Made by a program: the position numbers and the translations under genes. This document shows, piece after piece, positions 30,974 through 46,621 of a DNA stretch of 64,000 bases. The stretch is from an uncultured Bacteroidia bacterium. Its GTDB lineage: Bacteria > Bacteroidota > Bacteroidia > Bacteroidales > UBA932. How positions within the stretch are numbered: position 1 is the stretch's first letter; each line of letters starts with the position of its first letter. The notes below the pieces were generated by a model that saw only the letters and a program-made list of their open reading frames with translations, made no database searches and was not told the origin of the DNA. Location of the stretch: contig CADAAA010000004.1 of assembly GCA_902785785.1 (NCBI GenBank), positions 186,001-250,000 on the forward strand. Direction: 5' to 3'.

Positions 30974-33402
30974 CAGCTTATCTTGCTATAATCCTTGATG
31001 TTGTATTTATCCTTTTGAAGTTCCCGTGCAAGCGGGATATTCTTGGGTGAGGAGAGGAACGGATCCGACTCCAGTATATGCTCGGCATATACTCTCGCTT
31101 CGTTCAGGATGCGGCTGTCATGGACGAGTGATGCGATGTTCAACGCGATAGGCAGGCCGCTCTGTTGCGTACCCTCCAGGTCGCCGGGGCCGCGCATCTT
31201 CATATCCTCCTCTGCCAGTTCGAAACCGTTCTCGGTCGCGACCATAAGGTCAAGGCGGCGCTGCGACTCCTTTGACACCTTCTCGTCTTTGACGAGGATG
31301 CAGTAGGACTTCTCGCTGCCTCGCCCGACCCGGCCGCGCAGCTGATGCAGCTGGCTCAGACCGAAGCGCTGGGCGCTCTCGATGACCATGACCGATGCGT
31401 TCGGGACATCCACGCCCACCTCGATGACTGTCGTTGAGACGAGGATATCCGCACGGCCGGCTGCAAATGCGGACATGTTGAAGTTCTTGACTTCGTTGGT
31501 CTGTTGTCCGTGCACTATAGCGACCTTGTAGTCCGGCAGCGGGAAAGCCTTGACAATCTCCTCATATCCTGCCTCGAGGTTCTTCAGGTCCATCTTTTCG
31601 CTTTCGAAGATGAGCGGGAATACCACGAAGACCTGTCTGCCTTTGGCAATCTCGTCGCGCATGAACTTGTACAGTGCGCGACGCTTGCCTTGCCCTATGA
31701 GCATGGTCTGGACGGGCTTTCGGCCAGGCGGCAGTTCATCGATGACCGAAACATCCAGATCACCGTACAACGTCATCGCCAACGTCCGCGGAATCGGCGT
31801 CGCCGTCATTACCAGTACGTGTGGTGGCACACGTACCGGTCCTTCGGATGATTTCACCCCCTGCACCCCCTCGAGGGGGATTGCACGGATATCGCTGTCT
31901 CGACCGTGCGGCCCACGCACTATTTCCTGTTCAGAGGGAGTGCTGTCTTCGGAAACCGTGGCCGCCCGTGGCCTCGTGAACGGGGGGACCGCAAGCGAAG
32001 CGCTGCGGTGGGATGAGCGAAGCGAAGTTTCAGAAGGCAGCACTCCCTCCTGAGGAAGGATGACAGGGCCTTTGGCCCAGAGCTTCGAGCGCTGGTCGAC
32101 GCCGAAGCGGTGCTGCTCGTCGATGATGGCGAGGCCGAGGGCGCGGAAGCGGACGTCATCTTCGATGAGCGCGTGCGTGCCGATGAGGATGGCGATACTG
32201 CCGTCCTCGAGGCCGGCGTGTATCTCGCGGCGCTCCTTGGCGGTGCTGCTGCCCGTAAGGAGCGCGCACCGCACGCCAGTTCCTTCGAGGTACCTGCTCA
32301 CATTGGCGTAATGCTGCTGCGACAGGACTTCCGTCGGAGCCATGATGCACGACTGGAATCCGTTGCCGTAGGCAATCAGGCATGTCAGCACGGCGACCAT
32401 GGTCTTGCCGGAACCGACGTCTCCCTGCAGCAGGCGGTTCATCTGATGGCCGCTGGTCAGGTCGGCACGTATTTCCTTAATGACGCGTTTCTGGGCGCCG
32501 GTGAGGTCAAATGGCAATTTCCTGTACAGGGCATTGAATGACTCGCCGACCTTGGGCATGCGGATGCCGATTTCGCTGCGGCTGCGTATGTATTTCTGCT
32601 TCAGCAGGGAAAGCTGAAGGAAGAAAAGCTCCTCGAACTTGAGGCGGTAGGATGCCTTGAGCAGCGCATCCGCATCCTGCGGGAAATGGATGTTGCGCAT
32701 GGCGAACTTCAGCGGGACCAATTCCTTTTCGTGCAGGATGTATTCCGGAAGGGTTTCTTCGATCTCCGGGAGGCAAGCATTGAGCGCGGCGGCCTGAAGG
32801 CGGTTCATAACCTTGCCGGTTATGCCTGCGTTCTTGAGCTTCTCAGTGCTTGGATAAACTCCGGTGAGGGTGCCTATGCCGGTGTGGACCTCGCCCGGTG
32901 ACGGGGGATTGTCCACTTCCGGGTGGACGATATTCATGCGGCTGCCGAAAGTCTGCGGCTTGCCGAAGAAAACGAACACACTTCCCGGCGTAAGCCGCTC
33001 CCAGTTCCACTTGATGCCCTTGAAGAACACCATCTCCATCTCGCCGGTACTGTCCGCGACAATCACGCTCAGGCGTTTGACGGCATTGAAACGCAAGGTC
33101 TTGGCTCCGGTCTTGTCCTTCGGGCAATTGTCTATCTCGGTACCGGCCTGGCTGCGCTGTATGAATATCGAACTGCCGGGGCCATAAAGCGTGGCCCGTA
33201 TTACTCTGGCCATGACCTGGACATGAGCGACGTCAGGAGTGATTTCGGCTATCCGCTGGATGCTGCTCCTGTCGATATACCGGAACGGATACAGATGGAT
33301 GAGATCGCCGAAAGTGGCGACCTCCAACTCTGTCTTCAACAGCTGGGCCCTTTTCGGCCCCACGCCCGGCAGATACTGTATGTCCGATTTTAATTGTGTC
33401 AT
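30973..33402 (-). CDS. recG: ATP-dependent DNA helicase RecG with an in-frame palindromic insertion
   Basis: The protein (809 residues from the ATG at 33402) is a complete RecG. The wedge/OB domain (YLPGVGPKRAQLLKTELEV) precedes Walker A GDVGSGKT, DEQHRFGVDQR, TATPIPRTLAMT, ESAQRFGLSQLHQLRGRVGR and a C-terminal region with MRGPGDLEGTQQSG. RecG rescues stalled forks and branch-migrates junctions. Known RecG proteins are about 690-700 residues. The extra length is mainly a roughly 70-75-residue insertion between DEQHRFGVDQRSKLWAKG and PHVLVMTATP, encoded by palindromic DNA at 31.8-32.06 kb. A smaller insertion of about 25-30 residues lies in the OB region. The upstream ATG at 33414 is inside the -7 box and is rejected. 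Confidence 0.93.
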   Translation of the reverse strand: MTQLKSDIQYLPGVGPKRAQLLKTELEVATFGDLIHLYPFRYIDRSSIQRIAEITPDVAHVQVMARVIRATLYGPGSSIFIQRSQAGTEIDNCPKDKTGAKTLRFNAVKRLSVIVADSTGEMEMVFFKGIKWNWERLTPGSVFVFFGKPQTFGSRMNIVHPEVDNPPSPGEVHTGIGTLTGVYPSTEKLKNAGITGKVMNRLQAAALNACLPEIEETLPEYILHEKELVPLKFAMRNIHFPQDADALLKASYRLKFEELFFLQLSLLKQKYIRSRSEIGIRMPKVGESFNALYRKLPFDLTGAQKRVIKEIRADLTSGHQMNRLLQGDVGSGKTMVAVLTCLIAYGNGFQSCIMAPTEVLSQQHYANVSRYLEGTGVRCALLTGSSTAKERREIHAGLEDGSIAILIGTHALIEDDVRFRALGLAIIDEQHRFGVDQRSKLWAKGPVILPQEGVLPSETSLRSSHRSASLAVPPFTRPRAATVSEDSTPSEQEIVRGPHGRDSDIRAIPLEGVQGVKSSEGPVRVPPHVLVMTATPIPRTLAMTLYGDLDVSVIDELPPGRKPVQTMLIGQGKRRALYKFMRDEIAKGRQVFVVFPLIFESEKMDLKNLEAGYEEIVKAFPLPDYKVAIVHGQQTNEVKNFNMSAFAAGRADILVSTTVIEVGVDVPNASVMVIESAQRFGLSQLHQLRGRVGRGSEKSYCILVKDEKVSKESQRRLDLMVATENGFELAEEDMKMRGPGDLEGTQQSGLPIALNIASLVHDSRILNEARVYAEHILESDPFLSSPKNIPLARELQKDKYNIKDYSKIS
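31815..31836. repeat. 22-bp palindrome at the 3' boundary of the recG insertion
   Basis: A perfect 9-bp inverted repeat GTACGTGTG-GTGG-CACACGTAC lies exactly where the inserted residues join the conserved PHVLV of RecG. Flanking bases extend it with one mismatch. Confidence 0.6.
31931..32053. repeat. Palindromic MITE-like element inside recG (123 nt)
   Basis: Terminal inverted repeats at 31931-31956 and 32027-32053 match at about 24 of 27 positions, with core GAGGGAGTGCTG and CGGAAAC/CTGAAAC. The interior has CGGGGGGACC at about 31981-31990, followed by a hairpin ACCGCA...TGCGGT. The length is divisible by three, so recG stays open. The element has the same plan as the one in mtaB. Additional palindromes continue to 31837 on the low-coordinate side. 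Confidence 0.7.
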
Positions 33403-44894: not shown

Positions 44895-46244
44895 TCAGAT
44901 GATGATGTCTGTCAGCCGCCCGACGAGCGAAGCGTCGTAAGGCCGCACAATACGTATGTAGTTTCCGGTATATCCCGACATGTTCCCGTCCTTTTCCTTC
45001 GATTCGAAAAGCACGCGCTCGCGAATGCCGCGGTTCTCCTCGACGAATTCGTCGTGGAGGCGGGAGCACAGCTCCTCAAGGGCGAGGACGCGCTCATGCT
45101 TGACGGCTTCCGACAATTGTCCGGGCATCTTCGCCGCCGGAGTCCCTGGCCTGCGGGAATAGGGGAATACATGTATGAAAGCCGGTCTCAGCCGGGCGAT
45201 GAAATCATAAGTTTCCTTGAACAGCTCCTCAGTCTCGCCCGGAAGACCGACCATCGTGTCTATGCCGAAGAACACCTTCGGCTTGCCAGGACCTTCCATG
45301 CGGGAACGGATATAGGCTATCCGGTCCGCGAAGAATGCGGTGTCGTATTTACGACCCATGGCCTTCAGGAGCGTGTCGCTGCCAGTCTGGAGCGGTATGT
45401 GGAAATGCGGCTGGAACTTTGTCCCGGAAGCGATCCAGTCGACGATCTCCTCCGTGATGAGGTTCGGCTCAATCGATGAGATGCGGTAACGCTCTATGCC
45501 TTCGACCTTGTCCAATGCCTTAAGAAGGTCGAGGAAAGACTCGCCGGTGGTATGCCCGAAATCCCCGGTGTTGACCCCCGTCAGGACGATTTCCTTCACG
45601 CCTTCGGCTGCAATCGCCTCTGCATTCCTTACGCACTCGCAAATCGGAATGTTCCGGCTCTCACCACGGGCATATGGCACAGTGCAATACTTGCAGAAAT
45701 TGTTGCACCCGTCCTGCACCTTCAGGAACGACCTCGTCCTTTCCCCTGTGCTGTACGCCCCGAAGACGGAATTTCTTTTCTCCGGGGGTAGTGTCCCGGA
45801 AAATGCCTCACTATGTTCGGCCCCCCCCATTGCGAGCAATGGGTCCCCCCCTCTTATGTTGCCGAGGGTGGCACAATTCTCCGGGGCACTACCCTCGGAG
45901 AAAAATCCTGTCAGGGCCAGGGTTTCGGGGACTACGAGGGATTTCTCGTGGGCGCCGAAGACGCGGGTGACTCCTTCGATGGCCTCGAATTCGGCCCTGT
46001 GAAGCTCTGCGCTGCATCCGGTAACGATGATGCGCGCATCGGGGTTGATGCGATGCATCTTCCGCACGATGTTTCGGGATTTTGCGTCAGACGTACCGGT
46101 GACGGTACAGGTGTTGACCAGGTAGATGTCGGCTTTCTCCTGCCACGGGACTACCTTGAGTCCTGCGGCCTTGAACTCCCGCTCGTAAGTGGAAGTCTCC
46201 GCATAGTTGAGCTTGCAGCCCAGTGTCAGGAAAGCTATTACCAT
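44895..46244 (-). CDS. mtaB: tRNA t6A37 methylthiotransferase MtaB with an in-frame palindromic insertion
   Basis: The protein (449 residues from the ATG at 46244) has the MTTase N-terminal domain (TLGCKLNYAET, NTCTVTGTSD, TGCSAE), the radical-SAM motif CNNFCKYCTVPYARG and a C-terminal TRAM-like region. MtaB adds a methylthio group to t6A at position 37 of ANN-decoding tRNAs. Residues about 114-157, between the N-terminal and radical-SAM domains, are encoded by a palindromic element at 45776-45904. In this linker position the insertion is probably tolerated. It shares the path with tsaD, divergently encoded nearby. It overlaps folB by 7 nt. Confidence 0.93.
   Translation of the reverse strand: MVIAFLTLGCKLNYAETSTYEREFKAAGLKVVPWQEKADIYLVNTCTVTGTSDAKSRNIVRKMHRINPDARIIVTGCSAELHRAEFEAIEGVTRVFGAHEKSLVVPETLALTGFFSEGSAPENCATLGNIRGGDPLLAMGGAEHSEAFSGTLPPEKRNSVFGAYSTGERTRSFLKVQDGCNNFCKYCTVPYARGESRNIPICECVRNAEAIAAEGVKEIVLTGVNTGDFGHTTGESFLDLLKALDKVEGIERYRISSIEPNLITEEIVDWIASGTKFQPHFHIPLQTGSDTLLKAMGRKYDTAFFADRIAYIRSRMEGPGKPKVFFGIDTMVGLPGETEELFKETYDFIARLRPAFIHVFPYSRRPGTPAAKMPGQLSEAVKHERVLALEELCSRLHDEFVEENRGIRERVLFESKEKDGNMSGYTGNYIRIVRPYDASLVGRLTDIII
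45776..45904. repeat. Palindromic MITE-like element inside mtaB (129 nt)
   Basis: Terminal inverted repeats at 45776-45804 and 45876-45904 agree at 26 of 29 positions (core CTCCG[G/A]GGGTAGTG). The centre holds a perfect 8-bp hairpin CCCATTGC-GA-GCAATGGG at 45826-45843, between C8 and C7 runs. The length is 43 codons exactly, so the reading frame is kept. The design matches the recG element. Confidence 0.75.
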
Positions 46245-46621
46245 TTCCTGTCGAGGATTCTTCCGGACTTGGTCTCGTGAGGATATGACACGGTCACGCG
46301 TGACCATTGGCATGCCCCGCCGACAGGCGGAGTGCACTTGGATATCCTTATCTGGAAACGGATGAATTCCGGGAACTTCGCGGCAATGCCCTTGACTATC
46401 CTCCAGGCCACGTTTTCCATGAGGTTCGACGGTTTGTCCATCTCCTCGCGGATGACCTTGTAGACGTCGGCGTAATCGACCGTGTCATCCAGACGGTCGG
46501 ACTTGGCCGCGGTCTTGAAATGGTATTCCGCCCTGAAGTCGACCACGAAAAGGTTGCCCTCGGCCCTTTCCTTTTCGAAGCAGCCGTGGTACGCATGGAA
46601 CTCCATCCCGCTGAGTTCCAT
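46238..46621 (-). CDS. folB: Dihydroneopterin aldolase
   Basis: The protein (127 residues from the ATG at 46621, which overlaps the previous stop as TAATG) has the FolB signature GMEFHAYHGCFEKER with the conserved Tyr and His, and a C-terminal ISKCTPPVGGACQWSRVTV with the second-subunit active-site residues. It converts dihydroneopterin to 6-hydroxymethyl-dihydropterin and glycolaldehyde in folate synthesis. In-frame upstream ATGs at 46645 and 46681 are possible but lie inside the upstream gene. Confidence 0.93.
   Translation of the reverse strand: MELSGMEFHAYHGCFEKERAEGNLFVVDFRAEYHFKTAAKSDRLDDTVDYADVYKVIREEMDKPSNLMENVAWRIVKGIAAKFPEFIRFQIRISKCTPPVGGACQWSRVTVSYPHETKSGRILDRKW

Follow-up and report, generated by a model that had tools for sequence, protein, structure and literature searches.

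A dispersed structured palindromic element with locus-private arms resides in frame in genes of uncultured Bacteroidales

Conserved genes that carry palindromic repeats in frame are best known from Rickettsia. Inverted repeats also bound invertons, in which the flanked segment switches orientation within one population through a dedicated invertase. The Rickettsia palindromic elements (RPEs) measure 105-146 bp and occupy 19 protein reading frames, with a translated gmk product that has enzyme activity (PMC2229807). The same source presents MITEs as short, non-autonomous and dispersed units with terminal inverted repeats, and tabulates target duplication for several families (PMC2229807). For REPs, a further source gives lengths of 20-40 bp, describes intragenic copies with uvrA among the hosts, equates RPE-4 and RPE-6 with CGTC REPs and names Bacteroidetes among the phyla with CGTC REPs (PMC3733652).

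The element described here resembles RPEs in its size, its inverted repeats and the presence of copies both between genes and in frame within conserved genes (PMC2229807). It differs in its Bacteroidales host, its four-helix core, its locus-private arms and the finding of either core orientation at a single site. With the GTAG and CGTC families of REP/RAYT systems it shares hairpin units, some of them in frame in genes, and a correlated RAYT-like gene, but it is a single four-helix unit of about 120 bp whose conserved part is the core. Like invertons it has inverted repeats around a segment found in two orientations, but here orientation differs between species. The kind of element is already known from RPEs. 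New within the open-access literature searched appear to be the family, its occurrence in this phylum, the private arms matched within each copy and the core inversion; no title or abstract start there gave a matching description, and no paper on intragenic invertons came up.

An earlier note on the 64,000-nt stretch of DNA analysed here (the window) had described near-perfect 29-bp inverted repeats inside mtaB. These arms are confirmed: each is 29 nt long, they are complementary at 26 of 29 positions (90%) with 71 nt between them, and each contains the outer motif CACTACCCTCGGAGAAAA (≤3 mismatches); these are its two occurrences in the window, against 0.08 expected. Together with 10 nt on each side, the segment has a fold that none of 200 shuffles equalled, whether computed as DNA (z = −5.3) or as RNA (z = −5.5). 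The surrounding ORF of 480 aa is MtaB by TIGR01579 (386.9 bits against a cut-off of 357.05) and runs without a stop across the element (Table 1). The note had further stressed that 129 nt is exactly 43 codons and that the frame is carried through. The stop-free passage stands, but the codon count is incidental: among the 14 copies with measurable arms in the genome of the window, arm-core-arm lengths span 113-139 nt and include every remainder modulo 3; the reading frame is kept by the whole insertion together with its flanks. The insert had also been placed in the linker between the MTTase N-terminal and radical-SAM domains. In agreement with this, an alignment of 15 MtaB proteins puts the insert residues between the conserved ETL and F.AYS blocks, that is, between the N-terminal and radical-SAM blocks, and in the AlphaFold model of MtaB residues 146-188 have pLDDT <50 against a whole-model mean of 75.6.

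Table 1. Features of the element, its host gene and a second copy, in window coordinates
Feature	Position	Strand	Evidence
Whole palindromic element in mtaB	45776..45904	+ (core orientation +, hence antisense to mtaB)	inverted-repeat scan; genome search; covariance model R1, 117.7 bits
Left arm, helix P1 5' side, private sequence	45776..45804	+	first 24-25 nt matched nowhere else in genome arm search
Hairpin 1, GCC...GGC type (GTCC...GGAC in other copies)	45805..45821	+	alignment A1; pair counts
First C-run (other copies have CCCCTCCC); its three final C take part in hairpin 2 as well	45822..45828	+	alignment A1
Hairpin 2 (CCCATTGC..GCAATGGG), stem changes compensated	45826..45843	+	alignment A1; pair counts
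Second C-run and conserved TCTTA	45845..45856	+	alignment A1
Hairpin P4, GCC-GAGGGT-GGC invariant in A1; pairs outside it vary with compensation	45857..45875	+	alignment A1; pair counts
Right arm, helix P1 3' side	45876..45904	+	inverted-repeat scan; arm measurement
mtaB host reading frame, ORF and start codon as listed	44895..46337	-	ORF list; TIGR01579
Second, divergent copy, in frame inside recG	31931..32053	-	R1, 54.1 bits, E 7.5e-12; host is RecG

The element belongs to a multi-copy family. An initial nucleotide search of the genome of the window (G000; 2.36 Mb in 12 contigs) returned 20 matches, 14 at E<1e-9 and 6 at E>0.001 (L017-L020 were left aside). With the covariance model at E≤0.01 we found 19 copies in G000, two of them in the window, together with 14, 18 and 9 in the related genomes G169, G190 and G116, respectively. 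With 60 copies in four genomes, this is a short repeat in many dispersed copies, as are the protein-coding palindromic elements. The copy in recG has a core of the form CCCGTTCACGAGGCCACGGGCGGCCACGG, and like cores occur elsewhere in all four genomes. Family-wide, a match at E≤1e-6 under stricter filters was present in 59 of 199 genomes and in 11 of 25 genera; genus-wide, 58 of 101 genomes had a core match at E≤0.001. The host genus is probably Cryptobacteroides; the MtaB search kept 80 named relatives, all uncultured Bacteroidales or Bacteroidia, of which many come from rumen or faeces and two are assigned to Candidatus Cryptobacteroides. Carriage by viruses was considered and rejected, as the exact core pattern had no match in viral contigs.

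These further copies also bear on whether the 43 residues are simply an old, lineage-specific MtaB linker whose DNA is palindromic by chance. Linker length does vary in MtaB, from 10 to 90 aa among the 80 relatives, as such a history might produce. However, the inverted-repeat score of the linker DNA exceeds 10.0 (the highest value of 180 random sequences, which were scanned in coarser steps) in 14 of 16 linkers of ≥45 aa and in 1 of 64 shorter ones, and the same core recurs in unrelated genes; the other copies refute the old-linker reading, to which we give next to no chance. A segment conserved in MtaB as protein and lacking the palindrome was not encountered either.

Alignment A1, built from 46 of 54 listed copies from G000 and the related genomes, has a four-helix anatomy. 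Long arms (P1) enclose hairpin 1, then CCCCTCCC or a C-run, then hairpin 2, a second C-run with TCTTA and finally the GCC-GAGGGT-GGC hairpin. Across the 46 copies, 86.2% of the cells in 48 proposed pairs do pair, against 64.5% after shuffling, a percentage biased in favour of the structure because the structure was drawn from the same sequences. Cells changed on both sides numbered 481 against 158 ± 10 in shuffles, 39 of the 48 pairs changed on both sides against 31.7 ± 1.3, and sliding the partners by one column lowered the pairing to about 48-50%.

Strong compensation in the four helices, alongside invariant residues in single strands, is a pattern typical of functional RNAs, and copies in other genomes lie outside long ORFs, both of which would suit a cis-regulatory or catalytic RNA whose helices are kept by selection on transcript folding. 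On the other hand, copies lie in both orientations relative to genes, and the covariation comes without the G-U preference that marks structured RNAs. The gapless pair count over 46 copies gave 49 G-U against 53 A-C, and the arm pairs of 37 copies read in gene sense comprised 882 Watson-Crick, 11 G-U, 23 A-C, 35 other and 22 gapped cells. An Rfam scan gave no family at its cut-off, so that a known RNA family was rejected. We therefore consider a structured RNA improbable. If mRNA folding were under selection, G-U should outnumber A-C; as no such excess is seen, upkeep at the DNA level is favoured, and the pairing of the arms looks to be maintained there, either by hairpin-templated repair or by a need for a single-stranded DNA hairpin.

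In G000 the element resides in frame in 14 genes by model matches and in ispE by BLAST, the full set of hosts being mtaB, truB, tilS, recR, hemW, uvrA, rsmE, a PcrA/UvrD helicase gene, atpG, aroK, rlmB, ribF, ispE, dnaX and recG. The products of hemW, rsmE, the helicase gene, aroK and rlmB score below the cut-off of their best family model, which interrupted alignments can bring about. Since several family models matched hosts in pieces or below cut-off, such inserts may hamper annotation. Host names outside G000, along with the fmt, M16-peptidase and manA hosts, were assigned by eye. Across the four genomes, 42 of the 60 model matches could be assigned to genes, and the gene frame is open through all 42, in both orientations; the other 18 were counted as non-genic, including 3 for which no sequence was fetched. 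Residence both in frame in conserved genes and between genes is the habit of protein-coding palindromic elements. Intergenic copies lie, for example, between the convergent genes mltG/relA and ffh/nucleotidase; these two belong to three copies at gene ends (L003, L013 and L208) that could act as terminators.

The 42 genic copies use frame Sa 12 times, Sb 12 times, Aa 14 times and Ab 4 times, with orthologous copies not independent. Frame Sc, which carries Cys and Trp residues, is never used though it is open in 24 of 41 copies, and frame Ac is open in 1 of 42. This usage, with Sc avoided despite being open, points to selection on the translated peptide, and we infer that the inserts are translated as short, probably disordered peptides. 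The same data weigh on a segment that is removed before it could matter, whether as an intron that splices itself, by intein-like excision or through ribosomal bypassing. Introns and bypassed segments also interrupt conserved enzymes, but 42 open frames out of 42 and an unused Sc would be unexpected of untranslated copies, and both orientations occur; a removed segment is very improbable indeed. Individual copies show further peculiarities. The ispE copy (L015; C11:74323 in G000), which is not a model match, is split by about 90 nt of other repeat-like sequence with the frame still kept. The ribF locus (L014) and MtaB of genome G005 (L074) contain an in-frame motif reading HSERSEES or HAERSEAS, apparently another short palindromic repeat, which we take to occur widely. 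By eye, the recR copy of G116 (L226) is a remnant without the left arm and the first hairpin, its frame kept.

Residence in genes is not uniform across the family. We scored a copy as spanned by an ORF when a stop-free frame reached 60 aa beyond both of its ends. In the four genomes this test took 54 of the 60 copies (3 were unfetched and 3 lay too near a contig end), and 41 of them were spanned, compared with 203 of 324 random positions. For other genomes we took 40 copies among the best-scoring matches of ten family genomes and dropped 3 without the motif; here 4 of 37 copies were spanned, compared with 140 of 240 random positions (Fisher p = 5e-10 for the four against the ten genomes, copies not independent). 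Copies thus avoid genes in the ten other genomes and do not in the clade of the window. Open frames out of six averaged 2.97 in 36 copies from the other genomes and 3.29 in 14 copies from G000, similar values that leave openness no explanation for the gene habit, and the idea that the elements are specially open-frame sequences was rejected. Genomes that hold copies in genes and genomes that keep their genes free of them amount to a natural experiment.

Taken together, the most probable account is a non-autonomous and dispersed palindrome with internal structure and a length of about 113-139 bp. Its copies occupy intergenic DNA and, in the clade of the window, also permissive linkers in housekeeping proteins, and the copies in linkers would yield short peptides that are probably disordered. 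The earlier note's view of a mobile, protein-coding palindromic insert, similar in concept to RPEs, gains support from the 19 genome copies, genic and intergenic, and from relatives that lack the element; movement itself is what these patterns would imply.

The arms set the element apart from MITEs, whose ends are typically shared sequences, whereas here the ends differ from copy to copy. Among the 46 copies, left arms share 37% identity over their outer 18 nt, against 28% when shuffled and 79% in the core; conserved terminal inverted repeats common to the family are therefore absent, and the small excess over shuffling suggests a faint common ancestry of the arms. A search of 14 arms against the whole genome of G000 recovered the loci of origin, a single match linking hemW with dnaX and otherwise weak matches, and borrowing of arms from elsewhere in the genome was rejected. 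A second source, inverted copies of the target site, was rejected because the empty sites at C4:51570 (G169 and G116) and aroK (G169) carry no arm sequence. The uvrA and recR sites of G169 do retain arm-like sequence. As G190 has a copy with similar arms at uvrA, we read the sequence there in G169 as the probable remnant of a lost copy, with a native arm as the alternative. In a separate observation, the right arm and the GAGGGCGGCACGTCC stretch after it are common to the hemW copy (L006) and the dnaX copies (L016/L207), which looks like copying from one locus to the other.

Within a locus, compensated arm change does occur, and one-sided change is common too, being no less frequent than compensated change in several ortholog pairs. 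In same-orientation orthologs, compensated against one-sided positions numbered 6 and 5 for mtaB, 7 and 1 for dnaX, 1 and 2 for rsmE, 2 and 3 for truB of G000/G190, 0 and 3 for truB of G000/G169, 0 and 0 for hemW, and, with counts blurred by differences in arm length, 0 and 0 for ribF, 1 and 4 for uvrA and 7 and 8 for atpG.

The same linkers were found occupied, empty, reversed or refilled in relatives. The mtaB element is absent in G169, present in the same direction in G190 and reversed in G116; the tilS element is reversed in G190, and the atpG element in G169. Comparison of MtaB proteins, which the earlier note had proposed along with searches for further copies and for unoccupied sites, gave relatives without the 43 residues or with other palindromes in their place. 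Unoccupied sites exist as well: the intergenic site C4:51570, occupied in G000, is empty in G169 and G116, and in G190 its flanks are 3.7 kb apart, so there is no clean empty site there. By eye, no target-site duplication was seen at the empty sites compared, where the divergence of the flanks may hide one. In rlmB of G169, G190 and G116 (L147, L162 and L163), a palindrome with another core stands at the site of the G000 element, and its arms covary by eye across the three species.

Another core type (ACTCCG..CACTCCGG..CCTCCCATCG..CCGGGGGTGGACACG) occupies five mtaB linkers (L232, L235, L247, L268 and L284), in both directions. Between L232 and L235 the flanks are 79-80% identical and the arms match in the same direction at 26/27 and 24/27 positions (96% and 89%), while the cores match at 68/77 positions (88%) only after one is reverse complemented. 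Like arms around a reversed core make inversion in place the simplest reading of this pair. More generally, the arms of opposite-orientation copies at one locus have an identity of 0.675 (12 pairs) against 0.584 between loci (574 pairs; p = 6e-4, pairs not independent). The likeness is strongest at tilS, dnaX, uvrA and mtaB; three of the 8 loci with two orientations, atpG, ribF and the M16 peptidase, do not show it. For same-direction pairs at one locus the mean is 0.723 (9 pairs); ispE and a single aroK pair stay at background level. Copies in the same linker of different species could instead have been inserted independently into a small number of permissive sites, the cores never flipping there. 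The unlike arms of the opposite-orientation copies at atpG, ribF and M16, together with the ispE pair, leave room for separate insertions, and relatives carry differing palindromes in the same linker of rlmB, tilS and mtaB. Against this, L232/L235 and the pairs at tilS, dnaX, uvrA and mtaB are unusually alike in their arms around reversed cores, and we regard independent insertion throughout as possible but rather unlikely. The genus has at least 400 searchable genomes, in which one and the same linker can be compared when filled, vacant, reversed or exchanged. This opens to testing the way in which such elements move, the reason for their tolerance by core genes, and whether it is DNA repair or selection that keeps their palindromes.

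Inversion in place and matched arms can be brought under one scheme. The element would move through a single-stranded, hairpin-forming DNA intermediate handled by an enzyme acting in trans, for which the RAYT-like HUH (Y1) transposases encoded in these genomes are candidates. A hairpin or cruciform formed during replication would let one arm template the repair of the other, and the same state could let the core flip in place. Arm-templated repair and core flipping together would leave each locus with private, matched arms around a shared core. A bolder version, which we advance tentatively and hold to be doubtful, is a class of mobile elements whose ends are rewritten from each other: hairpin-templated repair would match the drifting arms, the core would flip or be replaced, the arms would serve as private docking sites in essential genes, linkers would pass between families and orientations, and HUH transposases of the RAYT kind would act on structure and not on sequence.

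A RAYT-like Y1 transposase of about 310 aa has 3 matches in G000, and 4 RAYT-like proteins scored above the cut-off of Pfam Y1_Tnp and below that of NCBIfam REP_Tyr_transpos. In the genus, 42 of 58 genomes with the core have a RAYT-like protein (E≤1e-40), compared with 15 of 43 without it (odds ratio 4.9, p = 2e-4, shared ancestry ignored). The remaining 16 core-bearing genomes have no RAYT-like match at this threshold and include G014, G064 and G088, with at least 8-9 scored core matches; G449 has 18 scored element matches and no RAYT-like match. The association is weaker in this genus sample than in 18 hand-picked genomes, where 8 of the 9 with many copies and 2 of the 9 without had Y1_Tnp. 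Setting aside the matches of three genomes that by eye look like another type leaves 7 of 9 and 0 of 9, respectively. Unlike the repeats of REP/RAYT systems, the element was not seen to flank the transposase: 15 fetched loci, spanning 2-3 kb around transposase matches, contained no R1 match at E≤5. A RAYT-like transposase, correlated with the element, is a candidate for its mobiliser. In G116, a hairpin follows the transposase gene and the same sequence lies in the tilS linker of that genome, which suggests, as a lead, that RAYT-linked hairpins may enter these linkers.
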